From the NCBI GenBank assembly GCA_030041475.1, contig JASHNU010000005.1, positions 1 to 64,000 on the forward strand: 64,000 bases of DNA, given 5' to 3'. The notes under the pieces were generated by a model. That model searched no databases. It was not told the origin of the DNA and saw only the letters and a list, made by a program, of their open reading frames with translations. Positions 1,964 to 64,000 of the stretch are shown here, in pieces (position 1 is the stretch's first letter; every line of letters begins with the position of its first letter). This stretch comes from Candidatus Sulfotelmatobacter sp. (GTDB taxonomy: Bacteria > Acidobacteriota > Terriglobia > Terriglobales > Acidobacteriaceae). The position numbers and the translations under genes were made by a program.

Positions 1964-2057
<94 letters not shown>

Positions 2058-2153
2058 GTATTGAAACAAACAACTTAACTAAATGTTACCAAAGATCAGG
2101 CGTCCGTTGGTGTCCAAAACAGACGAATAATGGACACAGGAGAGGCGACCATC

Positions 2154-2528: not shown

Positions 2529-2740
2529 CGGGCCAGCAGAAAAGCCAGCTGAATGGCGAGCCGAAGGCCAGAATGTGGATCGTCCGTTTTCAAGCGTGAT
2601 TACTGCCCCATGGTACACTCCTGCCACGATACCTACGGCCTGTCTGCCTTTCCTCGACTTCGAGCTATCGTAGTAAACGTGTTGCGCCTTTTTCCGAGGG
2701 CGCCGGCAACATCCACTCGTCGCAACACGAGGCTGAGCCC

Positions 2741-4219
2741 ATGCAGAACGCCAGAGTGCCCACGACCCTCAGGCGAAGTTCGAGAGTTCCGGCCGCCGTG
2801 TCCATCCTGGTGACCAGTCTTGCTGGGACGCGCTTCTCCGAAGTGTGTGAAACCCTCGTCGTGAATGCTCATGGTTGCGCCATGCTTTCGCCTGCGAAGC
2901 TGGACGCCGGTGTTCCGCTGCACTTGCACAGCAAAGAAGGACGAGAGGCAGCAGCGCATGTGGTCTATTGCCAACCTGTCGGATCTGACAATCGTCGTTG
3001 GAGGTTAGGAGCGAGTCTCGATCAGCCTGAAAATTTCTGGGGACTGCGAGATTACCCGAAGGATTGGCCAGTTGCGGCCGTGTCTGTACCTCCAAGAGTC
3101 ATGCAGACTCTAGTGCCCGTTTTTCTACCGCCTTCTCCGAAAGAAGCCGTGAGCCACTCCTCCGAGGCCGCGCTCGGGCGACTCGCCCGGCAACTGGAAA
3201 AGCCTGTGATGCGAATGATTGCCGAGTCCATTCGCCCGCTCCAGCTCCTGGTCACTACAATGAACGAGCAGGTCGCTACATTAAACCAGAAGCTTGCTCA
3301 CCGGGAGGCGAATCCCAGCCGGTTTGAGGTCTCGCTCTCAAGCATCCCACCTGAGCTTGAACAACAGCTCGAAGTGCGCCTTCGCCGCGATCTCGGTCCC
3401 AAAGTCCTCGAGGAGGCGCGCCAGCAGTCCGCACAGCTGCTGGCAGCAGCGAAGGTCGTGCTGGACGAGCAAGCGGCGGAGACTCACGAGCATTATCTGC
3501 AGCGAGTCTCCGAGGAGTTGGCTGCGGTCGAAAAGCGGGCCCAGGATCTTTCTGCCCATATTTCCCACGAAACACGAGAATACCTGCACCGCGGCCTGGA
3601 CGACTTCCACGATCAGCTATTGAACGGAGGTCACTCGCTCAAGCGGCTGGGTGAGGAACTCCTGGACTTCCTGGAACAGAACCTGAATCAGGAATTTCAT
3701 GCGCGCCGCACCGATCTGGAGCAGCTTCGCGCATCGGTATCGTCGGAGTCATTGCGCCTGCAGGAGCAGATTGAAGACCTCGACCATCGCATCGCCAAAT
3801 TGGACGAGGCGACTCGCAGCTTGGAGTCGGGATTGGATCAGCGCCTGAGTCAGATGTCTAGCAACACCCTGCGAGATGCACGCGGCCAGCTTGAGGCTGC
3901 CGCCAGCGAAATTTTCGAAGAGCTGTTAGCTCGCAGTGCGAAGACGCTCTCCGATCAGCATGACGCCGCCAGCGAGAACATGAAGATTGTCCAGAAGGCA
4001 ATCGTAAGCTCAGCCTCCGATTGGCTGAGAGCGGAAACCGCGAGTGCTCTGCAGGCCTTCGAACGCTCCATGGAAGAATTGGCCAAACTTTCAGAAGAGC
4101 GCTGGCGACTCAGGCTGGCAAGCGGCTTGAACGCTCTGGCGAAGGGACTTGGTGAACAATTGGGGATGCAAGCCGATCGTGACGACGAGGCCCCGTCTGA
4201 CAGTGTTCCCGGCACATGA
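2741..4219 (+). CDS. PilZ-domain protein with long C-terminal coiled coil
   Basis: 492 residues. Residues ~8-105 resemble a PilZ fold: RRSSR matches the RxxxR c-di-GMP loop, followed by VVNAHGCAM in the position of the D/NxSxxG motif (the Ser is replaced), then the beta-barrel pattern ending WRLGASLDQPENFWG. Residues ~150-480 are almost entirely heptad-rich, charged helix (EEARQQSAQLLAAAK, LDHRIAKLDEATRSLESGLDQRLSQM), predicting an extended coiled coil. PilZ domains bind c-di-GMP; because the second motif is altered, binding is uncertain. There is no signal peptide, so it is likely cytoplasmic, perhaps a scaffold whose conformation follows c-di-GMP. It stands alone, with its own ribosome site (GAGG) before ATG 2741. 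Confidence 0.7.
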   Translation: MQNARVPTTLRRSSRVPAAVSILVTSLAGTRFSEVCETLVVNAHGCAMLSPAKLDAGVPLHLHSKEGREAAAHVVYCQPVGSDNRRWRLGASLDQPENFWGLRDYPKDWPVAAVSVPPRVMQTLVPVFLPPSPKEAVSHSSEAALGRLARQLEKPVMRMIAESIRPLQLLVTTMNEQVATLNQKLAHREANPSRFEVSLSSIPPELEQQLEVRLRRDLGPKVLEEARQQSAQLLAAAKVVLDEQAAETHEHYLQRVSEELAAVEKRAQDLSAHISHETREYLHRGLDDFHDQLLNGGHSLKRLGEELLDFLEQNLNQEFHARRTDLEQLRASVSSESLRLQEQIEDLDHRIAKLDEATRSLESGLDQRLSQMSSNTLRDARGQLEAAASEIFEELLARSAKTLSDQHDAASENMKIVQKAIVSSASDWLRAETASALQAFERSMEELAKLSEERWRLRLASGLNALAKGLGEQLGMQADRDDEAPSDSVPGT

Positions 4220-4325
4220 ATGAATTTGCATTCTCGCTTTACGCTCATAACCCACCAATGAGCGATATCGCCTAGTTCAGAAGCGACGCCCAATGCCCCA
4301 GTCCTCGCTTCTATAATGTGCGTCC

Positions 4326-5225
4326 ATGCGGATAAAACCGCAAGCTCTGCGCTCTGTATCTGACACCGCGCTGCTGGTGGCATATCACCGTGCAATGGAG
4401 TCGCAGCGTGCGGACGCGCTGTTCAAGGACGAGTTCGCGGTCAAGCTAAGCGAAGCACGCGGCGAGCAGATTGCCCGGAGTCTCTTCTACAGCCGAAGCA
4501 TCGCATGGTCGACTATCGTGCGCACAGTGCTGCTCGACGATATCGTGCAACGGCTAGTCGCAACTGGTGTCGATAGCGTAATCAATCTCGCTGCGGGCCT
4601 TGATGCGCGACCGTATCGTCTGCCTCTGCCGGCATCGCTGCGCTGGATCGAGATCGACTTGCCGGATTTAGTGCGCGAGAAAAATGAGGCACTTGCGGCT
4701 GAAACGCCTGCCTGCCGACTGGAGCGGATCGCTGTTGACTTAACCGACGCCGGAAAGCGCCGTGAGTTGTTTGCTCGGCTCGCACGTGAATCGCAGGACG
4801 CGTTGATCCTGAGCGAGGGTCTGCTGATGTATCTGCCGCCGGCAGTGGTGGCCGAACTTGCTGAGGATCTACACGCCCAGAGTTCTTTTCGCCGCTGGGC
4901 AACCGATCTAGCGACAGCGGCCGTGAAACAACGCATCAATCGCTGGTGGGGGCGGAAACTGAAGCGAGCGCAGACGCACTATCAATTTGCTCCGGCGGAA
5001 GGAACCAAGTTCTTCGAACCGCATGGCTGGCGTGAAGTTGAATTCCATCCGATGATTGACCACGGCATCCGTTTGAATCGCGCGATGAGAGGCGTGTGGA
5101 TATTTAAGGCAATGGAGCGGGTTGCACCGAAGCGTGCGGCACGGCTCCGCGAGAAGTGGCGCGTTGGCGTGGCGCTGCTAGAGCCAACCACTAGCGTACT
5201 AGTTGGCCATGCTAGCCGGCAATGA
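4326..5225 (+). CDS. Class I SAM-dependent methyltransferase (leucine carboxyl methyltransferase-like, PF04072)
   Basis: 299 residues. The N terminus SVSDTALLVAYHRAMES and the SAM-binding VINLAAGLDARPYRLPLP near residue 85-103, followed by the acidic EIDLPDLVREK, are the signatures of the PF04072/TIGR00027 family, in which the Asp in LDARPYRL binds SAM. LILSEGLLMYLPP near residue 160 is the conserved post-SAM motif. The family methylates carboxyl or hydroxyl groups of small molecules or proteins, and the substrate cannot be told from sequence. Full length for the family. It is flanked by unrelated single genes, so context gives no hint of the pathway. Confidence 0.85.
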   Translation: MRIKPQALRSVSDTALLVAYHRAMESQRADALFKDEFAVKLSEARGEQIARSLFYSRSIAWSTIVRTVLLDDIVQRLVATGVDSVINLAAGLDARPYRLPLPASLRWIEIDLPDLVREKNEALAAETPACRLERIAVDLTDAGKRRELFARLARESQDALILSEGLLMYLPPAVVAELAEDLHAQSSFRRWATDLATAAVKQRINRWWGRKLKRAQTHYQFAPAEGTKFFEPHGWREVEFHPMIDHGIRLNRAMRGVWIFKAMERVAPKRAARLREKWRVGVALLEPTTSVLVGHASRQ

Positions 5226-5286: not shown

Positions 5287-5613
5287 ATGATATTCACCAA
5301 ACGACTTCGGGAAGGAGTTCGGTGCGGAGAAATCACCTGCAGCGTTCGTTTTTGGACCCGTCCGCATGTTTTGGTCGGTATGAGATACCGCATGGGCGGA
5401 GGCGCCATCGAAATCGACTCCATCGAAACGATTGGACTTCCAGACATTACGCCAGAACTCGCGCGTGAATCGGGATTCCTTGGAGTCCTCGATTTGCTTA
5501 AGGTCGCAAAACACGGCCGTTGCCAGAACATCTACCTCATTCGCTTCCACTATGTGCGGCCACGCGGTACAGGCAAGAGCCCGCGCAAGGTAACTAGCAC
5601 AACGAGTCGGTAG
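5287..5613 (+). CDS. ASCH-domain protein
   Basis: 108 residues. The pattern IFTKRLREGVRCGEITCSVR followed by GMRYRMGGGAIEIDSIETIGLPDITPELARESGF matches ASCH (PUA-like) domain proteins, which fold as a small beta-barrel and are thought to bind RNA or modified nucleotides; some are nucleoside amidohydrolases. The motif GxKxxExR of classic ASCH is only loosely conserved here. The ATG at 5287 has no obvious ribosome site. The tail after FHYVRP is low-complexity. It lies downstream of, and separate from, the methyltransferase. The 236 bases after it contain no gene that I can see. Confidence 0.65.
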   Translation: MIFTKRLREGVRCGEITCSVRFWTRPHVLVGMRYRMGGGAIEIDSIETIGLPDITPELARESGFLGVLDLLKVAKHGRCQNIYLIRFHYVRPRGTGKSPRKVTSTTSR

Positions 5614-5849
5614 ATCCTGTCCACTCTCGAAACGGGACCTACTGCCGGGTGAGTACAAATTTCTTCATCGGAGTAGTTGTTGATAAATCCTGATTACGCT
5701 CAAGATCCCCTAGCCGCCAGCCACTTTGACCCGTGAAGCTGTTGTAGAGATCCCCTCTGGTCACCGGCAGAGCCCCGCTGGTGAACAGGAATCCTTACCG
5801 TGCAATTGCACCGCGCCGAGAGGCAAAGGTTCGCAGTTTCGCACGAAGG

Positions 5850-7451
5850 TCAAATCGTCACGTTGAAGTTTTTCAGTTTGTTGGCGAGCGCGACGTAGTC
5901 CACTTTCGCGTTGTGTCGCTTGTCGACCGGGATGCGGTCCACAGAAACTACCTGATCTAGTTCGGCCCAGGAGAGCGATTGCCTGATTCCCTCGGTGGAC
6001 GCCCGTCCTTCGGTCTCGACCACCAAGATGCGACGGCCGGATCCCGCAACCAGTGCGGCGCGCCGGATCGATGAGCTCTCCATGGCTGCACACTCGACTG
6101 CGAAGGGATATAGGATGCCGAGTCCATCACGAACCTTGGCGCTCGATCGGCCGAGCAGCCAAAGACGGCCGTGGTAATCCATGTAACCGAGGTCGCCGGT
6201 GCGATGCCAACGCGTTCCGTCGACGTCAAATTTGGTTTCGGCATCGCCCTCGCCATGCAGGTAGCCGGGCAACACGTGATCCCCGGAGACCACGATTTCG
6301 CCCGCCTCCCCGGGCACTAGCGCGAGGTGATCAAACTGCGGACGGGTGAGGGGCGCAATCGGCTGTCCCCACTGGTCGCGAATCACACGCAGCGAAATGG
6401 ACGGGTCGGGAGGACCCGCCAGGAGGCCTGTGCCATTTCGCATGAGGAGAAAATCAGCATCCGAGATCTGGTCGAGAGCGATTTCCGCCATCGGCTCGGC
6501 TTCGGTGGAACCGTATACAGCGGCGATCGCCGCGTTTGGACAGAATTGCTTCGCCTTGCGAAGCACACGGGGAAATACAGGCGCGCCACCCAGAAAAACT
6601 TTTCTTAACTGCGGTATGGCTGTTTTTTCTCGCTCGCAGTGGCTGAGAAGTTGTTCCATCAACGCGGGAGAAGCGGCTGTACTTTGAATGCCGTGCCGTT
6701 GAATCTGAGCGAGCATTGGCCTGGGATCGATCATTCCGGGAGAACGCAGATCGGCGTTTGGAAGAACGCTGGTGACCCCTGATCCTAAATTGGCCAGCAC
6801 GAAGATCGGCAGTGTGGTGAGATCACATCCGCCGCGCTGAAGCCCGAGACTTCGTTCCAGTACGCGATGCTGGGCGACAAGGAAGCCGTGCGTTCGCAGC
6901 GCGGCTTTGGGTTGACCAGTACTGCCGCTGGTGAAGGTGATCAGAGCGGGGGCATCGTCGGGAAGGGACACGATAGAACCGGCGGAGTTTGCCGGGCCGT
7001 TTGGATGAATTCTTTCTTGATTTATTGTTTGAATTCTTATGGTGCCGGGAAACCATTCCGGACAAAACGTAATCGGCACGCGGCGAAGCGCAGGTATTGC
7101 CAGTCGGAGGAGCTGAGCTCGACGGCTGCCGAAGAAGGCCGCGGGAGGAAGGATGGAGCAACAGCGCTCGATATGGGCTCGTCCGGCGGAGGGGTCTGGA
7201 AAAACCGCGACGCAGCCCAGCCGAAACAGGGCGACGAGCGCGAGATAAAGTTCAGTGGCTACGGGATGGAAGAGCAGGACGCGATCGCCTGGCTGCAGGC
7301 CGGCCGCGCGGAATTGCGCGGCGACTCTTGTGGTTGCCCGCTCGAATTCGCGGAATGTCAACACGCGGTCCCTGGCACGGTGAACGTCGATTAAAGCCGA
7401 CTGATCACCGAGTTCGGACGCGCGCGCGAGGAGAGTCTCGGCGATGTTCAT
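5850..7451 (-). CDS. OleC-like adenylate-forming enzyme (ANL superfamily)
   Basis: 533 residues. It has the ANL phosphate-binding loop ITFTSGSTGQPKAAL near residue 171, the second motif VYGSTEAEPM near 315, the WHRTGDLGYMDYHGRLWLLGR core near 415-435 and a C-terminal VDKRHNAKVDYV whose Lys occupies the catalytic adenylation position. The RHNAK ending and the LPIFVLANLGSG region resemble OleC, the beta-lactone synthetase of long-chain olefin synthesis, more than classical acyl-CoA synthetases. ATP-dependent activation of a carboxylate (or beta-hydroxy acid) is therefore expected. It is the last gene of the seven-gene minus-strand operon that starts with HMG-CoA reductase, 14 bases after the GNAT gene. 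No OleA, OleB or OleD partner is in the window, so an olefin product is not implied. Confidence 0.75.
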   Translation of the reverse strand: MNIAETLLARASELGDQSALIDVHRARDRVLTFREFERATTRVAAQFRAAGLQPGDRVLLFHPVATELYLALVALFRLGCVAVFPDPSAGRAHIERCCSILPPAAFFGSRRAQLLRLAIPALRRVPITFCPEWFPGTIRIQTINQERIHPNGPANSAGSIVSLPDDAPALITFTSGSTGQPKAALRTHGFLVAQHRVLERSLGLQRGGCDLTTLPIFVLANLGSGVTSVLPNADLRSPGMIDPRPMLAQIQRHGIQSTAASPALMEQLLSHCEREKTAIPQLRKVFLGGAPVFPRVLRKAKQFCPNAAIAAVYGSTEAEPMAEIALDQISDADFLLMRNGTGLLAGPPDPSISLRVIRDQWGQPIAPLTRPQFDHLALVPGEAGEIVVSGDHVLPGYLHGEGDAETKFDVDGTRWHRTGDLGYMDYHGRLWLLGRSSAKVRDGLGILYPFAVECAAMESSSIRRAALVAGSGRRILVVETEGRASTEGIRQSLSWAELDQVVSVDRIPVDKRHNAKVDYVALANKLKNFNVTI

Positions 7452-7465
7452 CGTTCATCCAATGT

Positions 7466-8464
7466 TCATCCGTGGAGTTCCTTGGAATAAAGTGTGTATT
7501 TGCGCATTACCGAGGCGTAGTGGCGGCTGATGTTGAGAGAAATGTTGTTTTCAAACATGAGTGCGTGAATGCAGCGGTGAAAGCCGAGACTCTGGCCGAC
7601 TTCCTGCGCGCGCGAGACCAGAAGGCTGCCGAGGCCGCGCAGTTCGGGATGCGGGAGGATGGCGACGGTTTTGATGATGAAAGTGTCGAGGGAAGCGCCG
7701 CGGGCGGCCTGCGCGAAGTCGGGAATCGCGAATAGATAGCCAACACATTGACCGCGCTGCTCGGCCAGCAGCACGAGTTGAGGGCGCGCGTGGGGAAGAA
7801 CAGGTTCATACATCGCCGCAAATGCGGACTCGGGCAGTTCGGTATACAGAAAATTTTGCTGAAATGAAATTCGGCTGACACGGTAGATCGGCGGAAGCTC
7901 GCGGCGAAGATCGGAGTCCGCGGAACGGATGACGACTCCTGCGTCCGTCATTCTAGCTGCGACTTCTGGTATGCGTTCATCGCGCTGTGACAGGTCATTG
8001 TTGACTGCAGAAAAATATGAGGCGAGCGATGAGAATCCTGCCTCCAGAAATTGCCTGGGCCACTCCGGAGGATTCGCCGGCTCCAGAAAGAATGGTGGCA
8101 GATCGCCGGCGTCAGTGACGAAGCGATAGCTGCGCCAGGTATTTCCATTCATCGGTCCAACCGCGATGGTGCAGCCGGCTGCGCGCAAACGAGTTTGCGC
8201 CTCGGTTAGCAGGGCCGCAGCGGAAGTGTCATCCATGGCGGCATAATGCCCGATCGTGCCCACGCGGTGCTGCTGATACGGTGGAGCTTCGCCCCACCAG
8301 AGCGAGCATCGAGCGAGGACTTGACCGCCGTCGCCCAAAGCGCAAAGGTGAAGGTTGGCACGCTGGGATTCGAAGTCGAGAGCATTGAAAGGCGGCAGCC
8401 GATCAGAATGCCTTAGACGATCAATCTCAGATGCGGTGCTAGAGGCAGCTACACGAATCGCCAC
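7466..8464 (-). CDS. GNAT-like N-acyltransferase
   Basis: 332 residues beginning at GTG 8464. The C-terminal half carries a GNAT pattern: IIKTVAILPHPELRGLGSLLVSRAQEVGQSLGF, where PELRGLGSLL is the acyl-CoA pyrophosphate loop (R/QxxGxG/A variant), then ALMFENNISLNISRHY. The N-terminal half has VGPMNGNTWRSYRFV, as in larger GNAT proteins of unknown substrate, and may be a degenerate second GNAT domain. The gene overlaps the upstream kinase-like gene by 16 bases and precedes the OleC-like gene by 14, so it is co-translated with both. A role in transferring an acyl group (possibly activated by the neighbouring ligase) to an amine is an inference from adjacency. Confidence 0.7.
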   Translation of the reverse strand: MAIRVAASSTASEIDRLRHSDRLPPFNALDFESQRANLHLCALGDGGQVLARCSLWWGEAPPYQQHRVGTIGHYAAMDDTSAAALLTEAQTRLRAAGCTIAVGPMNGNTWRSYRFVTDAGDLPPFFLEPANPPEWPRQFLEAGFSSLASYFSAVNNDLSQRDERIPEVAARMTDAGVVIRSADSDLRRELPPIYRVSRISFQQNFLYTELPESAFAAMYEPVLPHARPQLVLLAEQRGQCVGYLFAIPDFAQAARGASLDTFIIKTVAILPHPELRGLGSLLVSRAQEVGQSLGFHRCIHALMFENNISLNISRHYASVMRKYTLYSKELHG

Positions 8465-9780
8465 AAAATCCTCGCTGCGAATGTTGAAAGCAACACGATG
8501 CCGGCTTGGCGTGCCCAGCGCGGGCCGCTCGCGGGGTAGATACCGTCGCGTTGCGGCTCGAGAAGATAGAACACTCCAAACGTGACAGCAGAGATTGGTA
8601 GCGCCAGCGCCGCTTGCAGCAGGGAAAGCCTACTGATGTGCTCGATAAGAACGTACGGCAGAAACATCAGCACCCAGGCGGCGGGAACGCAGGCGATCAT
8701 GATCAGCCGGGATGAAGGAAAGCGCGGATAGAGAAAGTTCCAGGCGATGATCGCAAGATGAATCGCGAAGGCCAGCGTGTAGGGAAACAGGAGCGCGGGC
8801 TGTTGCCACACACGCAGTAAGAAGAGCCAGAGCAGCCCGGCCGAGGCGATGGCTAAAACTGCGAGGGCGGTATGGGTTCGATCTTCAGGCGCGATCTTGC
8901 GGGGAATGAAGAAGACGTAAGCCAAGAGCAACAGCAGCGGGGGAACGAGCCACTGCCATCCTCCGAGCGCCCATGAGAGATAAAGCACAAGGGCAGCAGC
9001 CAGCACCGCGCTGCCTTGCAACGTGGTGCGGCGAGCGTAGGCGGTGGCAAGAAGAACCAGCGCCGCCGCCACGCGGAAACGGTCCCACAACTGCCCGAGC
9101 GGCATGGCCAGGTAAATGTGCAAGAGGATAAACACGCCAAGGGGAATGAAAATGTTGTCGAGTCCGCGCCAGGCGATGGCTTCGAGCAGCATCACGATGA
9201 TGCCGATGTTGAGCGAGATCAGCAATGTTTCGATGCGACCGGCGTCGGAGAACACGACCAGAGCGACGTTCACGCTGAAAAATGTGGTGACGAAAAATGC
9301 GATCGAGCCCTCCATGCTCTTGCTGGCGCCGGCGGCGGCATAGCCGTGTTTCCCGTATTCGCTTCCGGTCAAGGCCGCGACGGTGTCCGCGAGGGTGAGG
9401 ACCACCAGAGGAACGGCGTACAGCAATTTGCTGCCGTGAGCCAACTGATAAAGGATGGCGACCGAGATCGGAAAACAGACTTCACCCCATGACTGGCGCG
9501 CCACGCCGTCGAGAACGCCGGACAGGCGGGTTTTCGCCAATGGCACATAGCGCATGCCGAGAAGGAGAGCGACAGAGGCTCCGCAGATGATGAAGATCGG
9601 AAGGCGCTGGGTAAAGATCCAAGGCAGGCAGATCGACATGAAACCGGTGCTGATGTGCGCCAGCTTGCGCACCCATTCCGCCTCCGCGCTGGTCCGCTTG
9701 CGGTAGAAGCGCAAGACAAAAAGCATGGCCAGTGCGCATGCCAGCACAATGAGAATCGCAAGTGCATCGCGCTGGGTCAT
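8449..9780 (-). CDS. Phytol/dolichol-kinase-like membrane protein with extra C-terminal membrane domain
   Basis: 443 residues with about a dozen hydrophobic segments. Residues ~1-215 resemble CTP-dependent polyprenol/phytol kinases and the related phosphatidate cytidylyltransferases: EWVRKLAHISTGF near residue 36-48 and GASKSMEGSIAFF near 150 match the R-K-x-x-H and K-S-x-E-G-S nucleotide-binding motifs. The remaining ~220 residues form a second hydrophobic block not found in the usual ~200-residue kinases. It overlaps the DUF3419 gene by four bases (ATGA) and the GNAT gene by 16. Together with HMG-CoA reductase and a UbiA prenyltransferase in the same operon, phosphorylation or CDP activation of an isoprenoid alcohol is the simplest reading, but the substrate is not shown. 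Confidence 0.7.
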   Translation of the reverse strand: MTQRDALAILIVLACALAMLFVLRFYRKRTSAEAEWVRKLAHISTGFMSICLPWIFTQRLPIFIICGASVALLLGMRYVPLAKTRLSGVLDGVARQSWGEVCFPISVAILYQLAHGSKLLYAVPLVVLTLADTVAALTGSEYGKHGYAAAGASKSMEGSIAFFVTTFFSVNVALVVFSDAGRIETLLISLNIGIIVMLLEAIAWRGLDNIFIPLGVFILLHIYLAMPLGQLWDRFRVAAALVLLATAYARRTTLQGSAVLAAALVLYLSWALGGWQWLVPPLLLLLAYVFFIPRKIAPEDRTHTALAVLAIASAGLLWLFLLRVWQQPALLFPYTLAFAIHLAIIAWNFLYPRFPSSRLIMIACVPAAWVLMFLPYVLIEHISRLSLLQAALALPISAVTFGVFYLLEPQRDGIYPASGPRWARQAGIVLLSTFAARILWRFV

Positions 9781-10874
9781 ACGACCTCGACCTCCTCTAC
9801 CACGAACGCGCTGTAGAAAAAAGCGCGATCCTGCGCGAACAGACGCGCGCTCAATTCCGAGAGAGGCCGCAAGGTTGCAGCCATTGATTCGGGACGGCGT
9901 CGCGGCGCGAGCATATTCCAGTATGCCAGCCGGGTCCCGGGCCGGGCCTTGGAGACGATCAGCCGCAGCAGCGCTTCATAGGTGTTGGGAGCCATGTATT
10001 CAAAAATGTCGCTCAGATTGAAACAGTCAAATTTCTGCGACTGTGTGAGTGACTCCTCCAGTGAGTCACAGCGCCATTCCAGGCGGTCCAGATTTCTGCG
10101 AATGGGTTCGAAGTTTTCCTCGCGCAGGGCGGCAGGGAGAGCGCAATCGTGCCGGCCGGTCAGAATCCAGTGCACATAGGGATTCTCAGCGGGGTCGAGT
10201 TCGGTAAGGGCGTACTCCGTGCGCTCAAGAATTCGCTCGGCAACACTGCCCTCAACGTAGCGAAAAAATTCGGGATCGCGTCCCAGCAGGCCCATCACCG
10301 TCCTGGAAAAAAATATGCGGAACATCAGGCGCCAGCGGAGATTGTCCCACTGCATCTTGTAGAACGACCGCCGATCCGCGAGAGATTTGGGGCGCATCAA
10401 GTTGTCCACGCGGCTGCGCGAATGGACCAGAGGCAGGACGCGCGTGCGGAACATTTGGAAATAATGCTCGAACTTGCCGATCGAGCCGATGCCGGCCGCG
10501 ATTTGAGCCGGTCGCTGATCCCAGAAGCTGGCGGCGGAATAAGAAAGACGTTTGCGGCAGGCCTGATACAGGCGCGGCCGGTCGTTGCTGTCAACAGATC
10601 CGATGAGGGCGAGGAGTTCCTGGTGCTGAAGTGTGCGGTAGGCGGCGACGCGCAGCTCCAGACAATAAAGCTGCGCCGGACTGAGATCGATGGCGAGCAC
10701 ACTCTCGGGAGCGCGGGACAAAAGGGCCAGAGCGTTGTCCCCGGCGGAGGCGATTGAGAGGCAACGCTTGCCCGGACCGGGCTTGAGCGCTTCCAGCAAG
10801 ATGTCGGCGTCTTCCCAGCATTGAGCGTAGCGAATGCCGGAAAAATCCGCACGATCGGCGGCTTCGCTACGCAT
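9777..10874 (-). CDS. BtaA-like (DUF3419) SAM:3-amino-3-carboxypropyl transferase
   Basis: 365 residues from ATG 10874, which has a good AAGGAG site and overlaps the preceding gene by eight bases; the longer frame upstream is not used. The N-terminal FSGIRYAQCWEDADILLEAL, followed by the SAM-binding CLSIASAGDNALALL and VLAIDLSPAQLYCLELR, are hallmarks of the DUF3419/BtaA family. BtaA moves the 3-amino-3-carboxypropyl group of SAM onto the free hydroxyl of diacylglycerol, the first step of betaine-lipid (DGTS) synthesis. BtaB, the N-methyltransferase that completes DGTS, is not adjacent. In this isoprenoid-flavoured operon the acceptor could be a different lipid alcohol. Family call firm, acceptor unknown. 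Confidence 0.8.
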   Translation of the reverse strand: MRSEAADRADFSGIRYAQCWEDADILLEALKPGPGKRCLSIASAGDNALALLSRAPESVLAIDLSPAQLYCLELRVAAYRTLQHQELLALIGSVDSNDRPRLYQACRKRLSYSAASFWDQRPAQIAAGIGSIGKFEHYFQMFRTRVLPLVHSRSRVDNLMRPKSLADRRSFYKMQWDNLRWRLMFRIFFSRTVMGLLGRDPEFFRYVEGSVAERILERTEYALTELDPAENPYVHWILTGRHDCALPAALREENFEPIRRNLDRLEWRCDSLEESLTQSQKFDCFNLSDIFEYMAPNTYEALLRLIVSKARPGTRLAYWNMLAPRRRPESMAATLRPLSELSARLFAQDRAFFYSAFVVEEVEVV

Positions 10875-13530
10875 GGCTCTCCTTGCCCGCCACCCGGCGA
10901 ACGATACCGGCAGCGCCGTCCAGTTCGACTTCATCGCCGTCGCGCAGCCAATCGAGGAGGCCGGGGAGCGAGATGACGGCTGGAATGCCGAGCTCGCGGG
11001 CGACGATGGCGGAGTGAGAAAGAAGACTGCCGCGCTCGACGAGCAGTCCGCTGGCGGATGGAAAGAGCATGATCCATCCGGGGTCGGTGTGGTCGGCAAC
11101 CAGGATGCAACCCGCGGGAAGACGCGCGTTCCTGGGATCGCGAACGACGCAGGCGATGCCGCGTACTACGCCCGGACAGCAGCCGAGGCCGTGCCGCTCC
11201 TCCCCTTCGGCCGCGACTTTATGATTGGTTTCCGTAGAACTATAAGTTTGCGCGTGGCAAACGGCTCCGCGAGTTTCGAAGCGATCGGCGGGAGCGGGGA
11301 GCTTCGAGTAGCTCGCGAATTCCTGCTTTCTCAATGCGACCAGAGAGTGAAGATCGGCAGTCGTCGCAGTGCCGTTGTTGAAAGCGAGAACCTCAGGGAG
11401 TTCGAGATAGAAAACATCGCGGGCGTCGTCAAGTTTCCCCATCGCCTGGAGACGGCGCCCAGCCTCGAGGAAGAGGCGGCGGATCGTTCCAAACAATCGC
11501 GTTCGTTCAAAGCGAAGATTCTCTCGGTTACGCACCCGCTTGCGCGCCTGGCGCAGAACCCAGAACAGCGCTCTACGACGAATCGGTGAGCCCGACAATG
11601 CTGCCCGCATTTTCTGTTCGGCATCGGCGAGGGCCGTGTCACGAGGTTGCGCCGGAACCGCGGATACGCGGGCGACCTCGCCGATGTTGCGCAGAAGAAC
11701 AAGAGGATTGTCGCGGAGAGTTTCACTCTCCAGCTTCAACTCCTCCAGGCAGCGATCGCCGAACTTGGCGATGTAAGCATCGTAGAGCTTGGCAAACTCG
11801 GGATCCTGGCGTATGTCGCTGACGATCTGTGCCAGCGGGGCATCGCGCAGGGCGGCAGCGAGCTTCGGATTCGCGCAAGCGACCGCGGCCATCTCGCGCA
11901 CACGCGCTGCAGGTTCAAGACTGATCATGTCTCCCTGACCGCGAATGGCATCGTTGGCGAGCATTCCGTTTTCATCGCCGCACCAGCGCGCGGTGAGCTT
12001 GCGCAGGGCGCCATGAAAGATCATGGCGAAGAAGTCGTTGACCAGAGGCGCGTCCCATCGCGAAAGCAGCTGATGTTCGAGCTTGTAATAATGTGTGACG
12101 AGCTCGTCGAGGCGCATGTCCGCGAATGCGGGATCGGGCGCGGCCAGCGCCTCGTTCAGCCGGGCATAGAAATCCTCGATCTGCCGATCGAGCCGGATGT
12201 AGCTGAGCGCGAGTCCTGCGACCATGTGCACGCTGCGAAGTGCGTCCAAGACTCGATCCCGAGTGCGGGCTTGCTTTAACTGGCCGACAACTTCGGCGGG
12301 AAGACTCTCGCGCACACCCATCATCTGCTCCATGAAGCGGCGATTCACGGTGAATCCGGGAAGCAGCGCGAGCACACGGTACCAGTTCAAAAGGTTGTAA
12401 TAGATTCGGCCGCGGATCAGCCCCAGCATGCAGCTGAATGTCCCCTGGTTATCGGCTATTTTGTTCTCGGGAACACGCAGGATGCGGCAGAACTGGCGAT
12501 ACACGCCTTCATACACGTAGCGGGCGAACGAGAAGGTGAGCGGCGTGGTGATGCCGTTGTAGCTCTCCGTGATGTTGCTGTTGTCCCACAAATTGAGCGC
12601 GCCTTCGGGGTCAGCGAGATCGCGGAGAGTCGTGATGGGGCGTGATTGCAACAGGAACAACTGGTCGTCTTCGATCGCCCACTCGATATCCTGGGGCTGG
12701 CCGAAGGCATGCGCGGCGCGACGGGCAAGTTCGGCGACGGCGCGCGCCTGCTCATCGGTGAGCGCAGGCTTGAAGGCTTCGGCGTCGGTCAGCGCGACAG
12801 CCGAGACGCCCTCCACGGCGTTGGGATCAAATCGGTGGCAAATGTTCTTTCTGACGATCGCACGATCGACAATCGTACCTGAGCGGTCGATCTTGAAGAC
12901 GTCGGCAGCGGCCTCGCCACCGACCAGCGCAGTTCCGAGGCCGGGCACAGCGGAGACAATAGCCAAAGAGCGTCTGCCGCTGACCGGATCGGAGCTGAAG
13001 GCGACTCCGGAAACGAAGGCGTTCACCATTTTCTGCACGAGCACCGCAGGAGCGGTAAGGGGAGCGAGCGACAGCCCGTGCTGGCGCCGGTATTCCATGA
13101 CGCGTTCGCTGAAGCCGGAGCGCCACACATCGGCGATCTTCCCGGGGATTGATTCAGGTATGACGAAAAGAAAAGTTTCGAGTTGCCCCGCGAAGGAGTG
13201 CTGAGTGCTGTCTTCTTCGACCGCAGACGAGCGAACTGCGAAACGCGAGTTGTCGCCGCCCAGGGTACGCAGGGCGGCTTCGATCTCGGCGCGAACTTCT
13301 TCGGACGGCCGCAGTGAGGCCAACGCAGAGTTCAGCCGGGATAGGTCCTGCGATGCAAGCGCGGCGGACAGATCGCTCGTCAAGCTGTCGGTGAATGCAG
13401 AGGGCGGCACTGCAAACCAGGGGGGCACGGGCAATCCGAACTGCCCCAAGCGGAGAAGGGCGAGGGCCTTGCCTCCGAGTTCCGTCAACCCCAGTTCGGC
13501 CAATCCGCCTTCGCGAAGAGCAAATTTCAT
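10867..13530 (-). CDS. PEP-synthase-like dikinase with rifampin-phosphotransferase architecture
   Basis: 887 residues. Residues ~1-310 are a PPDK/PEP-synthase ATP-grasp domain (FAVRSSAVEEDSTQHSFAG, VSGVAFSSDPVSG, IEWAIEDDQLFLLQSRPI). A ~450-residue middle region follows, rich in aromatic helices (NITESYNGITTPLTFSFAR, GLIRGRIYYNLLNWYR). The last ~100 residues are the swivelling His domain, with LLSHSAIVARELGIPAV and the phospho-accepting His near residue 839. This order (ATP domain, large substrate domain, C-terminal His domain; no TIM-barrel PEP domain) is that of rifampin phosphotransferase, which uses ATP to phosphorylate a hydroxyl and releases AMP and Pi. ATG 13530 lies one base after the UbiA stop; ATG 13542 is an alternative. 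The acceptor is probably the operon's product, not necessarily an antibiotic. Confidence 0.8.
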   Translation of the reverse strand: MKFALREGGLAELGLTELGGKALALLRLGQFGLPVPPWFAVPPSAFTDSLTSDLSAALASQDLSRLNSALASLRPSEEVRAEIEAALRTLGGDNSRFAVRSSAVEEDSTQHSFAGQLETFLFVIPESIPGKIADVWRSGFSERVMEYRRQHGLSLAPLTAPAVLVQKMVNAFVSGVAFSSDPVSGRRSLAIVSAVPGLGTALVGGEAAADVFKIDRSGTIVDRAIVRKNICHRFDPNAVEGVSAVALTDAEAFKPALTDEQARAVAELARRAAHAFGQPQDIEWAIEDDQLFLLQSRPITTLRDLADPEGALNLWDNSNITESYNGITTPLTFSFARYVYEGVYRQFCRILRVPENKIADNQGTFSCMLGLIRGRIYYNLLNWYRVLALLPGFTVNRRFMEQMMGVRESLPAEVVGQLKQARTRDRVLDALRSVHMVAGLALSYIRLDRQIEDFYARLNEALAAPDPAFADMRLDELVTHYYKLEHQLLSRWDAPLVNDFFAMIFHGALRKLTARWCGDENGMLANDAIRGQGDMISLEPAARVREMAAVACANPKLAAALRDAPLAQIVSDIRQDPEFAKLYDAYIAKFGDRCLEELKLESETLRDNPLVLLRNIGEVARVSAVPAQPRDTALADAEQKMRAALSGSPIRRRALFWVLRQARKRVRNRENLRFERTRLFGTIRRLFLEAGRRLQAMGKLDDARDVFYLELPEVLAFNNGTATTADLHSLVALRKQEFASYSKLPAPADRFETRGAVCHAQTYSSTETNHKVAAEGEERHGLGCCPGVVRGIACVVRDPRNARLPAGCILVADHTDPGWIMLFPSASGLLVERGSLLSHSAIVARELGIPAVISLPGLLDWLRDGDEVELDGAAGIVRRVAGKESHA

Positions 13531-58917: not shown

Positions 58918-59592
58918 TCAGGACAGGAAGAACTCCTTCGTCAGCGTGGTCCAGTCCAATTCGGGCAGGTGCTCGGTGATGTCATCCACAGCCACGCCGC
59001 CGTCCTGCGCCAGGGCTGATGCCATCGCAACCGGCATTCTCTTGCGCAGCCGCAGCGCCGACTCTTCCGTCCACATCCGCGCCAGTGCGCCACCAAGCAG
59101 GTTGCGGAAGTTGATCTTGGCATCGGGAGCCTGTACCGTCAGCAGCCAACCTTCACCATAAGGATCCTTCCGCGCCAGTTCCGGATCCTGCACCACGGCT
59201 TCGTTGATATCCGTCACCGTGCCTTCGATCGGCGACACCATGTCCACCGACTTGCCGTCGCGGAAGATCGTCCATATCTTCTGCCCCTGACGGACCCAAC
59301 GTCCACGCTGCGGCAGTGTGATGTTTTCGATTTTTCCAATCAGCTTGGAAGCGAAATCATCCATGCCCACGCGCACCAAGTCGCGGCTCTCGCTTAGCGC
59401 CCAGGTGTGCCCGGCGTGATAACGCACATTTTCCGGAACCTGGAAGCCGGCCACCATGGCCGGAAGCATTCGCGGCGCCGCTTCGCGAGCTATGCCTTGG
59501 GCAACCACCTGCGTCTCCAGTTGTTTCCGACTCCGCACGTAATCAATCGCCAGGAAGATTCCGAATGTAAGCAGTACCAGAATGACTACCAT
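58918..59592 (-). CDS. Membrane-anchored GcvH-like protein
   Basis: 224 residues. N-terminal transmembrane helix (MVVILVLLTFGIFLAIDYV), then a GcvH (lipoyl/H-protein) domain at ~55-190: VRYHAGHTWALSESRDLVRVGMDDFASKLIGKIENITLP, then VDMVSPIEGTVTDINEAVVQDPELARKDPYGEGW. The hairpin that carries lipoyl-lysine in GcvH (ESVKAASDIY) reads GKSVDMV here and is one residue shorter, so lipoylation is doubtful. It is divergent from the Fe-S/NrfD operon across a 625-base region, which fits membrane GcvH-like proteins found beside redox modules. No glycine cleavage genes are near. Confidence 0.75.
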   Translation of the reverse strand: MVVILVLLTFGIFLAIDYVRSRKQLETQVVAQGIAREAAPRMLPAMVAGFQVPENVRYHAGHTWALSESRDLVRVGMDDFASKLIGKIENITLPQRGRWVRQGQKIWTIFRDGKSVDMVSPIEGTVTDINEAVVQDPELARKDPYGEGWLLTVQAPDAKINFRNLLGGALARMWTEESALRLRKRMPVAMASALAQDGGVAVDDITEHLPELDWTTLTKEFFLS

Positions 59593-59685
59593 AACCCACC
59601 TCGCTTGGAGTGCCTCTTGCTTTCCTGGTCACTCGCCACTTTCTCTAAAGGCAATCGCGCAGCCAAACGAATTGGGCGCATGCAC

Positions 59686-60103: not shown

Positions 60104-60125
60104 TCCGATTACCCCGGTAATCGGA
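60104..60125. promoter_or_regulatory. 22-base perfect palindrome upstream of the ferredoxin gene
   Basis: Ten-base arms TCCGATTACC and GGTAATCGGA around a CC centre, ending 92 bases before the ATG at 60218. Without a T-tract and far from any upstream gene end, it looks like an operator rather than a terminator. Confidence 0.5.
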
Positions 60126-60217
60126 TCCTCCCCTCTCTTCAGTTCAGACGCTGCGCAAGAAAGTGTTTCAGGCATCTCTGTCTGCTCGAACAGATGTGCC
60201 CGAGGAAAAAGTCATTC

Positions 60218-60988
60218 ATGAGCAAAGCACTCTTATACGATTCCACAATTTGTATCGGGTGCAAGCAGTGCGAACAGGCTTGCGCCACACAAAATAAGCT
60301 TCCGTACAACGACTCCATTGCTGCCGAAGAGCAGCAATCCGCTCATAAGTTCACTGCTGTTTTAACCCGCAACGACAAGTTTATGCGCCGCCTGTGCATG
60401 CATTGCGAGCATCCTACCTGCGCTTCGGTTTGTCCGGTCGGCGCGTTCCACAAGACGGCGGAGGGGCCCGTCGTTTACGACGTGTGGAAGTGCATCGGCT
60501 GCCGCTATTGCATGGCAGCGTGCCCCTTCAACCAGCCCAAGTACGAGTGGGGATCGCTGAATCCACGAGTACGCAAGTGCATCATGTGCCCGGACCGTAT
60601 CGCGGCCGGCAAGCAGACGGCGTGCGCCGAGATTTGTCCTACCGGGGCCACCAAGTTCGGCGAACGCGACGATCTCATCAAGGAAGCCCAGGAGCGCATC
60701 CGCCAGAATCCATCGACCTACCTGAACCGCATCTACGGACTCCATGAAGTGGGCGGAACCTGCGTCCTGATTCTTTCTGGCACGCAGGTTGAAGATTTCG
60801 GCTATCCCGCCTCGCCAAAAATCGGCGACACTCCTCTCCCCGAATACACCGGCCGTGTGATGGATCGAGTGCCAGACTTTATTCCGGTCTGGTCGCTGGT
60901 GCTGGGAGGCATTTACTGGATCTCCCACCGCCGTAACGAAGTGGCTGCAGCTGAAGCCGAGGAGAAAAAAAACGGGGGTGCCCGATGA
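60218..60988 (+). CDS. Four-cluster [4Fe-4S] ferredoxin subunit (NrfC/HybA-like)
   Basis: 256 residues from ATG 60218, which follows GAGGAAA. Four [4Fe-4S] motifs: CIGCKQCEQAC near residue 14, CMHCEHPTCASVCP near 67, CIGCRYCMAACPF near 101, and CIMCPDR...CAEICPTG near 130-150. A C-terminal membrane-associating helix (IPVWSLVLGGIYWISH) follows. It has no Tat signal, so the ferredoxin faces the cytoplasm unless carried by a partner. It should pass electrons to the NrfD-like subunit, whose gene overlaps it by four bases. Confidence 0.9.
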   Translation: MSKALLYDSTICIGCKQCEQACATQNKLPYNDSIAAEEQQSAHKFTAVLTRNDKFMRRLCMHCEHPTCASVCPVGAFHKTAEGPVVYDVWKCIGCRYCMAACPFNQPKYEWGSLNPRVRKCIMCPDRIAAGKQTACAEICPTGATKFGERDDLIKEAQERIRQNPSTYLNRIYGLHEVGGTCVLILSGTQVEDFGYPASPKIGDTPLPEYTGRVMDRVPDFIPVWSLVLGGIYWISHRRNEVAAAEAEEKKNGGAR

Positions 60989-62169
60989 AAGTCAAGCTGA
61001 CCTTTTGGAGAGCTGTCTTCCTCGTAATCATGGCCCTGGGCCTCTATTCCGCCTACGTTCGCTACGCTCACGGCCTGGGTGCGGCCACCAATATGACCGA
61101 CCAGTTCCCCTGGGGATTCTGGATCGGCTTCGACTGCCTGTGCGGCGTCATGCTGGCGGCCGGCGGCTTCTGCATCGTCGGCGCAGTCTATTTATTCAAC
61201 GTTCAGAGCCTGCACAGCGTCATGCGTCCGGCAATCCTTACCGCCTTCCTCGGCTACCTCCTTTTCATCGTCGGCCTGCTCTTCGATCTCGGCCGTCCCT
61301 GGTTCATCTGGCACCAGCTCATCTACATGAACCCGCACTCGGTCATGTTCGAAGTGGGCATGTGCGTGATGACCTACACCACCGTGCTTTTCTTTGAATT
61401 TCTTCCCAATGTGTTCGAGCGCCTCAACTGGAAAAAGCCGATCAAGTGGATTCACAACATCTATCCCGTATTGATCGTGGCGGGCATCCTGCTCTCCACC
61501 CTGCACCAGAGTTCGCTCGGGTCGCTGTACCTGATCATGCCCAGTAAGCTGCACCCGTTCTGGTACTCGCCCGCGCTGCCGTTCTTCTTCTTCGGCTCGG
61601 CCGTCGCGGTTGGATTGGCCATGACCATCTTCGAATCCACGCAAAGCGCGAAGGCCTACGGCCGTCATCTCGAGCTTTCGGTTCTGGTCCGGCTGGGCGG
61701 AGCTTTGCTGGTCGCACTCTGGGTAAACGCTCTACTTCGCTTCGAAGACTATTTGCGGCGAGGAATGCTTCGCCAGATCGTAAAACCCAGCTACGAAGCC
61801 TACTTCTTGTGGCTCGAGCTCGCTCTATCATTCGTCATCCCGATTACGCTGCTCAGCTTCAAGAGAGTCAGGCTCTCGCCCAAAGGCCTGTATTTGGCCT
61901 CGATCATCAGCCTATTTGGCTTCATCACCAATCGGCTGAACGTGAGCCTCATCGGATTCGAGACCTACGTGGGACACCATTACATGCCGAAATGGACGGA
62001 ATTCTCGGTGACGCTGATGATCGTCGCCCTGGGATTCTTCCTTTTCGCGGTTGCGGTGAAGTATCTACCGATCTTCCCCAGAGAACCAGAAGCTGAAGAG
62101 GAGCCGGTGACCGCATCAAGCCCGGTTCTGCAAGCGGTTTCGCCAGTGCTTGAGAATGCCGGAGACTGA
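60985..62169 (+). CDS. NrfD/HybB-type quinone-interacting membrane subunit
   Basis: 394 residues with about nine to ten hydrophobic helices (VFLVIMALGLYSAYVRYAHGLG, GFWIGFDCLCGVMLAAGGF, LTAFLGYLLFIVGLLFDLG, IYPVLIVAGILLSTLHQSSLG and others). It belongs to the NrfD/PsrC family, which exchanges electrons between a ferredoxin partner and membrane quinone, sometimes with ion translocation. ATGA overlap with the ferredoxin gene; its end overlaps the histidine kinase start by 14 bases. The catalytic subunit that would feed or take electrons is not in the window. Confidence 0.9.
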   Translation: MKVKLTFWRAVFLVIMALGLYSAYVRYAHGLGAATNMTDQFPWGFWIGFDCLCGVMLAAGGFCIVGAVYLFNVQSLHSVMRPAILTAFLGYLLFIVGLLFDLGRPWFIWHQLIYMNPHSVMFEVGMCVMTYTTVLFFEFLPNVFERLNWKKPIKWIHNIYPVLIVAGILLSTLHQSSLGSLYLIMPSKLHPFWYSPALPFFFFGSAVAVGLAMTIFESTQSAKAYGRHLELSVLVRLGGALLVALWVNALLRFEDYLRRGMLRQIVKPSYEAYFLWLELALSFVIPITLLSFKRVRLSPKGLYLASIISLFGFITNRLNVSLIGFETYVGHHYMPKWTEFSVTLMIVALGFFLFAVAVKYLPIFPREPEAEEEPVTASSPVLQAVSPVLENAGD

Positions 62170-63823
62170 ACCAATTCGCCGTCGCTGGCCGCCGAGGCTC
62201 GGCCTGAGCGCCAAGCTGAACGTTCTTCTGTTGGGCGCGATGGTCGTGATTTTTGCCCTGCTCGGGTATCTCAACATCCGCTTGCACCGCCAGCATCTGG
62301 AGCAGGCGGCCCTGTTGAGCGCCGAGCGCGTCAGCGACGTGATCAAGCACAGCACCACCGACTATATGCTGCGCAATGATCGCGAGGGCTTGTACCGCGC
62401 CATCCATACTCTTGCGGATGAACCGGGCATGGTCAAGATCCGCATCTTCGACAAGGAAGGGCGTATCACCTATACGACCGATCCGGCCGAGCGCAATCAG
62501 GTGGTCGACAAAGGAGCCGAGGCCTGTTACCGCTGCCATGCCCAGTCCCAGCCGCTGGCGCGGCTCGACCGGCCCGATCGCTTTCGCATTTATCGCAACG
62601 GCGGTGGCACGCGTGTCCTGGCCATCATCACTCCGATTGAAAACCGGCCCGCCTGCTCCAATGCCGCCTGCCACGCCCATCCTTCCCAGGAGCAAATACT
62701 CGGCGTTATCGACACCCACCTGTCTCTCGCCAAGGCTGACGTACAACTCGCCGACAGCACCCGGCAGATGGCTGCGTACACCGGATTTGCACTCTTTCTG
62801 ATCGGCTGGGCGAGCTGGTTTTTCACCTGGAGTGTCGTAGGCATTCCCATCAATGCGCTCCGGCGGGGCACCGATCGACTGGCCGCCGGCGACTTGGGTT
62901 ACCAGATCGACGTGCAATCGGAAGATGAAATCGGCGAACTGGCCAAGTCGTTTAACACCATGAGCCGGCAATTAAGGGCGGAACAAAACCAGAATCTCGC
63001 CTGGACCCGCACTCTCGAACAGCGCGTCCAGCAGAAAACCAGTGAACTCAAGCTCGCTCACGAGCACGCTCTGCACACCGAGAAGATGGCGTCCATCGGC
63101 AAAATGGCGGCCGTTCTGGCTCACGAGATCAACAATCCCCTTTCCGGCATCCTCACTTACGCAAAGCTGCTGCGCAAGTGGATCGATCGTGACGATGCGG
63201 GGCGCGACCGCAGGCAGGAAATCCGCGATTCGCTCGATCTCATCGCCAGCGAGAGCCGGCGCTGTGGCGACCTGGTGAAGAATCTGCTCACGTTTTCCCG
63301 AGCTACCCCGCTCAACTTGCTCCTAACCGACCTGAATCATGTCGTCGAGCAATCCGTTCGCCTGGTGCAGCACCAGTTCGACCTGGCAGGCGTTCAACTC
63401 CAGCTGCATCTCGACCCCGATCTTCCGCGGGTTGTGTGCGATGCATCTCAGATCGAGCAAGTGCTCCTCGCGCTCATCATGAACGCCATGGACGCCATGC
63501 CCCAGGGTGGCAACCTGTGGCTGACCACAACTTTTACCCGCGAGCCCGGGCAAGTCCGCATTGTCGTGCGCGACGACGGTGTCGGCATTCCTCCCGAAAT
63601 TCTGCCCCGCCTCTTTGAGCCGTTCCTTACCACTAAAGAGACCGGACGCGGTGTCGGCTTGGGCCTCGCCATCAGCCACAGCATTCTCGAGCGCCACCGC
63701 GGAAACATTGAAGTGCAATCGGAGGTCGGCCGCGGCACGACCTTCACCGTGACTTTGCCCTGGGACTCCGAGGCTGCGAAAGGCGCGCCGCCCGAAGTTG
63801 TCATCACGGCCAGCAGGAGGTGA
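62156..63823 (+). CDS. Membrane sensor histidine kinase with haem-binding sensor domain
   Basis: 555 residues from ATG 62156. TM1 (LNVLLLGAMVVIFALLGYL, ~22-40), then a periplasmic sensor of ~165 residues containing CYRCH (residues 124-128), a c-type haem motif, and CSNAACH (167-173), a CX4CH variant; TM2 (~207-228); HAMP (RGTDRLAAGDLGYQIDV); HisKA with the phospho-His in AVLAHEINNPLSG near 323; and an ATPase domain ending in GVGLGLAISHSILERH. Haem in the sensor would detect redox state or gas. It overlaps the NrfD-like gene and is followed five bases later by a response regulator. Confidence 0.9.
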   Translation: MPETEPIRRRWPPRLGLSAKLNVLLLGAMVVIFALLGYLNIRLHRQHLEQAALLSAERVSDVIKHSTTDYMLRNDREGLYRAIHTLADEPGMVKIRIFDKEGRITYTTDPAERNQVVDKGAEACYRCHAQSQPLARLDRPDRFRIYRNGGGTRVLAIITPIENRPACSNAACHAHPSQEQILGVIDTHLSLAKADVQLADSTRQMAAYTGFALFLIGWASWFFTWSVVGIPINALRRGTDRLAAGDLGYQIDVQSEDEIGELAKSFNTMSRQLRAEQNQNLAWTRTLEQRVQQKTSELKLAHEHALHTEKMASIGKMAAVLAHEINNPLSGILTYAKLLRKWIDRDDAGRDRRQEIRDSLDLIASESRRCGDLVKNLLTFSRATPLNLLLTDLNHVVEQSVRLVQHQFDLAGVQLQLHLDPDLPRVVCDASQIEQVLLALIMNAMDAMPQGGNLWLTTTFTREPGQVRIVVRDDGVGIPPEILPRLFEPFLTTKETGRGVGLGLAISHSILERHRGNIEVQSEVGRGTTFTVTLPWDSEAAKGAPPEVVITASRR

Positions 63824-63828
63824 TACAC

Positions 63829-64000
63829 GTGGAAACACAAGGCAAAATCCTCATCGTCGACGACGAACTCACCGTTCGCGACTCGCTCGGGAAATGGTTC
63901 CGCGAAGAAGGCTACGAAATCGGCACTGCAGAAAGCGCCAGCGACGCCCTTACCCGCATGGCCGAAAACAAGTGGGACCTGGCCCTGCTCGATATCAAGA
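63829..64000 (+). CDS. Response regulator (NtrC-type likely), 5' part only
   Basis: The window ends 57 codons after GTG 63829, which follows CAGGAGG. The receiver domain starts GKILIVDDELTVRDSLGKWFREEGYEIGTAESASDAL and reaches the phospho-Asp region WDLALLDIK. In this context (histidine kinase upstream) it is the cognate regulator. The rest of the gene is outside the window, so the output domain cannot be seen; the form of the receiver is common in sigma-54 activators. Confidence 0.85.
   Translation, partial: METQGKILIVDDELTVRDSLGKWFREEGYEIGTAESASDALTRMAENKWDLALLDIK

Follow-up and report, generated by a model that had tools for sequence, protein, structure and literature searches.

Two sensor proteins of Geobacter, GSU0582 and GSU0935, and the sCache_heme family (DUF3365/Tll0287) have a Cache/PAS fold with a c-type haem site, and some sCache_heme members are reported to be fused to histidine kinases. 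In the Geobacter sensor Met60 is described as binding the reduced haem and leaving it on oxidation (PMC8396549). Additional haem motifs were mentioned for Adeh_2011, Adeh_3383, Gsu0591 and Gsu0599 (PMC3831638); for this reason two haems in such a sensor would not be new in themselves. A different group of systems, HmcBC, HybAB and QrcCD, combines an Fe-S subunit containing four cluster-type cysteine groups with an NrfD-type membrane subunit. Relatives of both kinds of protein are encoded together in the DNA analysed here, a 64,000-nt window (bases 1-64000 of the 95435-base contig JASHNU010000005.1) from the 4.6 Mb genome of a Candidatus Sulfotelmatobacter species, a terriglobial acidobacterium. 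From left to right, the locus consists of a gene for a GcvH-like protein on the minus strand followed on the plus strand by the genes for an Fe-S subunit (FeS), an NrfD-type subunit (NrfD), a sensor histidine kinase, a sigma-54-type response regulator and an archaemetzincin (Table 1). The window cuts off most of the regulator gene and the whole of the archaemetzincin gene, and the operon continues past it. We lean towards the view that this locus specifies a two-component system that senses redox state through two haems, is attached to FeS/NrfD as its quinone-linked module and switches on a membrane-anchored pseudo-GcvH.

The preliminary description of this DNA had presented the kinase as a haem-type sensor with a CxxCH motif and a CX4CH variant. 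Its open reading frame (ORF) and both motifs were confirmed, and HAMP, HisKA and HATPase_c domains scored above the Pfam cut-offs. Both motifs lie between two predicted membrane helices. In the AlphaFold model (mean pLDDT 74.8) they sit between the long helices 17-72 and 192-228, which hold the predicted membrane spans, and the periplasmic domain adopts a Cache/PAS arrangement. When kinase ORFs scoring above 150 bits were compared, 80 out of 81 contained both motifs, which argues against a chance occurrence; in the one remaining sequence, L135, the kinase is split between two frames. The residues C124, C127, H128, C167, C172, H173, H175 and M71 are invariant in 20 sensors drawn from both paralogous types and in 48 aligned main-type sensors, even though identity to the window sensor is as low as 47% in the latter. 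Identity rises to 90% for the closest named loci, which come from Candidatus Sulfotelmatobacter metagenome-assembled genomes (MAGs). A search of plasmids for the sensor gave no match.

Domains of WalK, CitA and GSU0935 were among the best Foldseek matches of the model (E 1e-4 or better), GSU0935 (3b42) being found at rank 7 (E 9.9e-5, TM-scores 0.28/0.46, root-mean-square deviation 13.7). The same structure was the best solved-structure match in a profile search, where the similarity was weak (E 0.023 over the full sequence, with none of the individual stretches significant). In this alignment one stretch sets the CX4CH motif on the CXXCH of 3b42, the other sets Met71 on the first Met of YMM. 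From that Met to the first haem Cys the 3b42 chain counts 80 residues, which equals the Met60-to-Cys140 spacing given in PMC8396549. As judged by this alignment, the invariant Met71 would be the counterpart of the axial ligand Met60. The agreement in predicted fold and ligands with a c-haem sensor supports the haem-type assignment. The window kinase differs from GSU0582/GSU0935 and the sCache_heme proteins in that CX4CH stands at the canonical place of CXXCH, that a CXXCH is present elsewhere in the domain as a second haem motif, and that PF21563 remains under its cut-off (24.7 bits versus 27). No other sensor family was named above cut-off in the Pfam scan either, PF11845 not being listed at E 0.001.

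The preliminary description had named a lack of operon conservation as something that would speak against it, and in this respect it was strongly borne out. A scan of genome contigs yielded 188 relatives, the best 80 of which were taken as named loci; all bear Acidobacteriota titles except L132, which is titled Bacillota. The named loci partly overlap with the loci of the genus, related genomes are not independent, and the neighbour names GcvH-like, FeS and NrfD rest on profiles built from the genus. In 53 of the 80 named loci FeS, NrfD, kinase, regulator and archaemetzincin genes lie on one strand, and their order is identical in all 53. Thirty-two loci have ample flanks, extending 4.5 kb or more before the kinase start and 6.5 kb or more beyond it; of these, the regulator was present in 32, the archaemetzincin in 31, FeS and NrfD each in 30 and the GcvH-like gene in 20. 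In six loci (L044-L049) the GcvH-like gene has been transferred to the opposite end, beyond the archaemetzincin gene, and is still linked; in eight deeper loci (L121, L123, L127, L128, L132, L134, L137 and L139) all six genes run in one direction. When neighbouring genes were clustered, every additional family was confined to 10 or fewer of the 80 loci. Within a set of 41 genomes the sensor was found in 18, the window's included, and all of these belong to its genus (18 of 25 inside, 0 of 16 outside). NrfD at an identity of at least 57% and the archaemetzincin occur in exactly the same 18 genomes, and the GcvH-like gene at 65% or more occurs in 17 of these and in none of the remaining 23. Where contigs allow it to be seen, the genes of the genus form one block, with the GcvH-like gene of G023 on another contig. 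That the operon is a local accident was rejected, as its order recurs across many Acidobacteriota loci. Among the papers listed in searches of the open-licence literature, no title or abstract opening described the module.

The response regulator consists of a receiver, a sigma-54 ATPase with GAFTGA and a Fis-type helix-turn-helix (NtrC-type). Kinase and regulator have the make-up of a two-component system; in the survey GAFTGA was found in 73 of 78 and HE[IV]NNP in 77 of 81 sequences. Promoters were sought with weights and a strict pattern of our own making (TGGC-N8-TGC, 100 to 35 bases before the start), upstream regions identical over 120 bases being counted once. Of 37 distinct regions upstream of the GcvH-like gene, 25 contained a site, against a mean of 0.14 in shuffled sequences. 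The corresponding counts were 1/65 for FeS (with ORF starts, not refined starts), 0/71 for NrfD, 1/78 for the kinase, 0/82 for the regulator, 0/62 for the archaemetzincin, 0/45 for a cytochrome gene that precedes FeS in many relatives (see below) and 1/347 for other ORFs. In clusters where the GcvH-like gene has been relocated to the opposite end, the site has stayed in place in front of it. The window site is the sole exact match in its genome to the pattern drawn from it; the genome also encodes cytochrome c assembly proteins and gave one rpoN match. Because the predicted sigma-54 promoter is conserved in position before the GcvH-like gene and nearly absent before the other genes of the module, this gene is the likely output, which kinase and regulator would switch on. 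The earlier suggestion that the kinase controls nearby genes thus likely holds for the divergent GcvH-like gene and, by the present evidence, not for FeS-nrfD. A kinase-regulator pair mainly driving FeS-nrfD by way of sigma-54 was rejected, since a site was found before FeS in 1 of 65 cases only.

It had also been stated that the kinase is translated together with the electron-transfer pair. The overlaps of 4 bases between FeS and nrfD (a shared ATGA) and of 14 bases between the end of nrfD and the kinase gene agree with this; they make coupled translation of the three genes plausible. The FeS ORF opens at 60194, and the start was taken at 60218, since relatives begin with MSKA. MSKALLYD directly precedes the first cluster motif and no export signal was seen by eye; a misplaced start hiding a signal peptide was rejected. 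NrfD scored 75.9 bits with the Pfam NrfD profile (cut-off 25.8). The pair shares the two-subunit design of HmcBC, HybAB and QrcCD and differs from these by its missing export signal and by scores under the curated cut-offs for HmcB (254.1 of 420), HmcC (296.6 of 550), HybA (188.8 of 263) and HybB (287.1 of 450). In our reading of the ORFs, no catalytic subunit was recognised in the window operon, in contrast to HmcBC and HybAB. Proteins partnering NrfD usually face the periplasm. The Fe-S subunit of the window may either face the cytoplasm or be exported along with another protein.

In 41 named loci (41 of the 62 assessed, 41 of all 80) a small secreted mono-haem cytochrome c gene lies just before FeS; the search was confined to this cytochrome family. 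The 62 are those that contain FeS and either the cytochrome gene or an upstream stretch of 800 bases or more. The other 21 comprise the subclade of the window, L090 and deeper loci, and in L046/L087 (taken as one genome) the first haem Cys of the cytochrome is lost. NrfD identity to the window falls in two groups, 76-95% and 45-60%, regardless of kinase identity. Over 54 loci, with shared species history included in the values, distances correlated at 0.90 for kinase, regulator and archaemetzincin, at 0.92 for FeS and NrfD and at 0.70 for kinase and NrfD. This indicates that FeS-NrfD cassettes of two lineages replace one another next to a single kinase lineage, and that their exchange is in part independent of the kinase. 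The idea put forward earlier, that the redox module reports its own state, is weakened by such exchange.

The GcvH-like gene and its odd divergent pairing with the operon are real. Its product has an N-terminal hydrophobic segment, a GCV_H domain and a conserved C-terminus, mostly EFFLS or similar. It matches the solved H protein 1onl (E 9e-18), with Gly at the position of the lipoyl lysine, where aligned members have Gly, Asp or Asn in our reading. In addition to this replacement, the membrane anchor and the C-terminal tail distinguish it from the glycine cleavage H protein, with which it shares the GCV_H domain. A normal H protein was rejected, as the lipoyl lysine is missing and the TIGR00527 (gcvH) score of 74.3 is below the cut-off of 115.85. 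It is unlikely to act as an H protein; a structural or assembly role is our guess.

The archaemetzincin exceeds both family cut-offs (NF033823, 151.7 of 145; PF07998, 72.9 of 24.4). The motif HEXXHX5HCX4CXM...CXXC was found in 84 of 85 archaemetzincins when the Gly of HEXXHXXGXXH was not required, this residue often being Asp, Asn or Ser. It shares the extended zinc motif of the archaemetzincins (M54), and differs by the frequent replacement of the metzincin Gly and by being encoded with a two-component system. CarG of Myxococcus has a role in transcription and no catalytic Glu (PMC3427221, PMC4374960), whereas the present protein keeps this Glu. Of 149 Acidobacteriota genomes sampled, 52 had archaemetzincin matches, 49 of these above cut-off. 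Twenty regions from the 52 genomes were picked by hand, not at random, and 18 were readable (not L190 and L192). In 12 of the 18 a haem-motif kinase and a regulator lie beside the archaemetzincin gene, 9 of the 12 also having FeS and/or NrfD within 6.5 kb, and in 6 it is solitary; the link to the kinase is therefore common and not universal. The correlation with kinase and regulator distances suggests that the archaemetzincin belongs with the signalling half. Natural archaemetzincin substrates were called unknown in 2012 (PMC3427221). Gene order, co-occurrence and parallel divergence tie the archaemetzincin to a putative haem two-component system in many Acidobacteriota, which offers a direct place to look for them.

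On the observed basis of sequences, gene order, co-occurrence and promoter position a model can be drawn in which haem binding, the signal, phosphotransfer, promoter use and the roles of the GcvH-like protein and the archaemetzincin are inferred. The kinase would sense redox state in the periplasm through two haems c, of which the second (CX4CH, His173) probably forms a His/Met71 switch as in GSU0935 and the first (CXXCH) probably passes electrons or tunes the switch. The FeS/NrfD pair would exchange electrons with the quinone pool, joined in many relatives by the small secreted cytochrome c encoded just upstream, so that haem oxidation would follow the state of this branch. The kinase would then phosphorylate the NtrC-type regulator, which together with sigma-54 would switch on the divergent gcvH-like gene. 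The product may serve the FeS/NrfD complex as an accessory protein or in its assembly, and the archaemetzincin may be a protease or regulatory partner in the signalling half. As the position-conserved promoter names the likely output gene, a single reporter would suffice to test the path. In the sensor, a histidine kinase of a major soil phylum would carry the Geobacter redox switch in a di-haem version.

Several observations weigh against this model. The match of the kinase model to 3b42 has low TM-scores and a large deviation. A strict promoter is absent from 12 of the 37 upstream regions of gcvH-like genes, and 12 of the 32 loci with ample flanks have no linked gcvH-like gene. The paralogous Qrc-type loci described below gave no convincing sigma-54 site, in stretches that do not all reach the start of the operon. 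The search for a binding site of the regulator gave no established site; two patterns found post hoc, TATCY-N10-20-AGATS (8 of 23 Terriglobia-type upstream regions, 0.11 in shuffles) and GTTGA-N4-10-CAAC (5 of 14 Bryobacterales-type regions, 0.06 in shuffles), are leads only, and the remaining dyad patterns tried had 0 to 4 matches. The window-type FeS has no export signal, although a Tat-like one is present on the Fe-S subunit of the deeper relatives L184, L187 and L191. The window subclade does not have the cytochrome at the locus, and the best homologue in the genome (64%) is unlinked, lying near genes that read as hemA-like and radical-SAM-like. The lower kinase-NrfD correlation and the two NrfD groups speak against a tight, specific contact between kinase and NrfD.

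A last point of this kind is that a kinase-type c-haem Cache protein behaves as a nitric oxide (NO) sensor, with slow NO release, according to a preprint (PMC12889525). The window kinase could likewise sense NO, or carbon monoxide (CO): the gas would bind the haem and displace the Met, and the regulator would switch on the gcvH-like gene as a defence or as a bypass of a damaged Fe-S/NrfD branch. NO and CO are reported to displace Met60 in Geobacter sensors (PMC8396549). This rival is unlikely in our estimation and nevertheless the main one. Fe-S proteins are targets of NO, which counts in its favour. Yet the constant partners of the kinase are electron-transfer proteins, often with a cytochrome c, and two haems would fit electron transfer better. 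The neighbour clustering mentioned above also brought no further family into view; no search was aimed at NO reductase or NO detoxification genes. The redox model is favoured because the switch Met is kept, a second haem motif is present and the operon is one of electron transfer.

The arrangement of the genes in one operon, with overlaps, and the dyad about 110 bp before FeS in the subclade of the window would suit a kinase that mainly autoregulates the FeS-NrfD operon, the GcvH-like gene being a bystander. We think this improbable: the regulator is of the sigma-54 type, yet such sites are all but missing before FeS and the cytochrome, and the GcvH-like gene has one and retains it after relocation. 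Another alternative, with vestigial or purely structural haems and a small organic ligand in the Cache pocket, agrees with a predicted fold close to ligand-binding Cache sensors such as CitA. It is still harder to accept, given haem ligands that stay invariant in the 48 aligned sensors at falling identity to the window. A bolder extension of the redox model, which we regard as doubtful and as somewhat less probable than gas sensing, holds that the window-type FeS/NrfD is no longer a respiratory enzyme but an antenna linking the quinone redox state to the kinase haems, and that the archaemetzincin is a redox-triggered protease or co-regulator with the sigma-54-driven pseudo-GcvH as its client. 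If true, the module would form a redox signalling machine complete in itself, and would place a bacterial archaemetzincin whose active site is intact in a physiological setting.

Table 1. Features of the locus (positions in the window, which equal those of the contig)
Feature	Position	Strand	Remarks
Sensor histidine kinase	62156..63823	+	555 aa from ATG 62156; two predicted transmembrane helices, periplasmic Cache-type domain, HAMP-HisKA-HATPase_c
Haem motif 1, CXXCH (C124, C127, H128)	62525..62539	+	predicted haem c site
Haem motif 2, CX4CH (C167, C172, H173, then invariant H175)	62654..62674	+	aligns with the GSU0935 haem site
Codon of invariant Met71	62366..62368	+	aligned with axial ligand Met60 of GSU0935
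NrfD-type membrane subunit	60985..62169	+	HmcC/HybB-like, under those cut-offs
HmcB/HybA-like Fe-S subunit	60218..60988	+	17 Cys, 16 of them in cluster-type groups; hydrophobic segment at the C-terminus; no export signal seen
Sigma-54-type response regulator, first part	63829..64000 in window (contig 63829-65184; possible start 63820)	+	
Archaemetzincin	contig 65220-65774, beyond the window	+	follows the regulator
Membrane-anchored GcvH-like protein	58918..59592	-	without lipoyl lysine, C-terminus EFFLS
Sigma-54 promoter of the gcvH-like gene, TTTGGCTGCGCGATTGCCTTTAG	59645..59667	-	predicted from sequence
20-bp inverted repeat, CCGATTACC-CC-GGTAATCGG	60105..60124	.	113 bp before the FeS start

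The inverted repeat before FeS has 9-bp arms and a 2-bp spacer. Eight close relatives have a similar sequence (2 to 6 mismatches) 100-119 bp before FeS, and it was not found there in L038 or further out. It is possibly the operator of some regulator.

The relatives also contain a paralogous set, in which kinase, archaemetzincin and regulator genes stand beside genes for a multihaem cytochrome, a molybdopterin-like protein, FeS, NrfD and GcvH-like proteins. The L053 cytochrome scores above the cut-off for QrcA (208.6 of 180); the QrcD score falls just short of its own (563.4 of 570), and QrcB and QrcC stay below theirs. L053, L055 and L057 each combine a Qrc-like complex and GcvH-like proteins (two in L053 and L055) with their own kinase-archaemetzincin-regulator set. 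A single archaemetzincin match was found in the window genome, which therefore seems to be without a Qrc-type set. In a third form, L184, the cytochrome has four haem motifs and the Fe-S subunit is above the HmcB cut-off (428.5 of 420). The Qrc-type and L184 forms imply that the signalling set accompanies several related electron-transfer complexes.

Some further loci are worth recording. In an SbA1 MAG (L050, 8576-10320; also L135) the kinase is split in two reading frames within an otherwise intact-looking module. G000:C3 (locus L054, ~5402-8667 and ~10284-12618) encodes a sigma-54-type regulator and a distant kinase that has two CXXCH motifs; near them in the same genome are a gene that reads as cytochrome b-like and a protein with nine CXXCH motifs. 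A [NiFe]-hydrogenase large-subunit-like protein (by reading) with its own HybA/HybB-like pair adjoins the module in L046 (12946-16855); two full-length hydrogenase large subunits are encoded elsewhere in the window genome. The GcvH-like proteins of L183 and L186 contain an extra four-cysteine stretch before the GcvH domain. Finally, NrfD (43%) and GcvH-like (40-42%) genes lie close together in G022:C93 (~64849-67430) and G023:C337 (~1907-4513), and these are intermediate between the two types.

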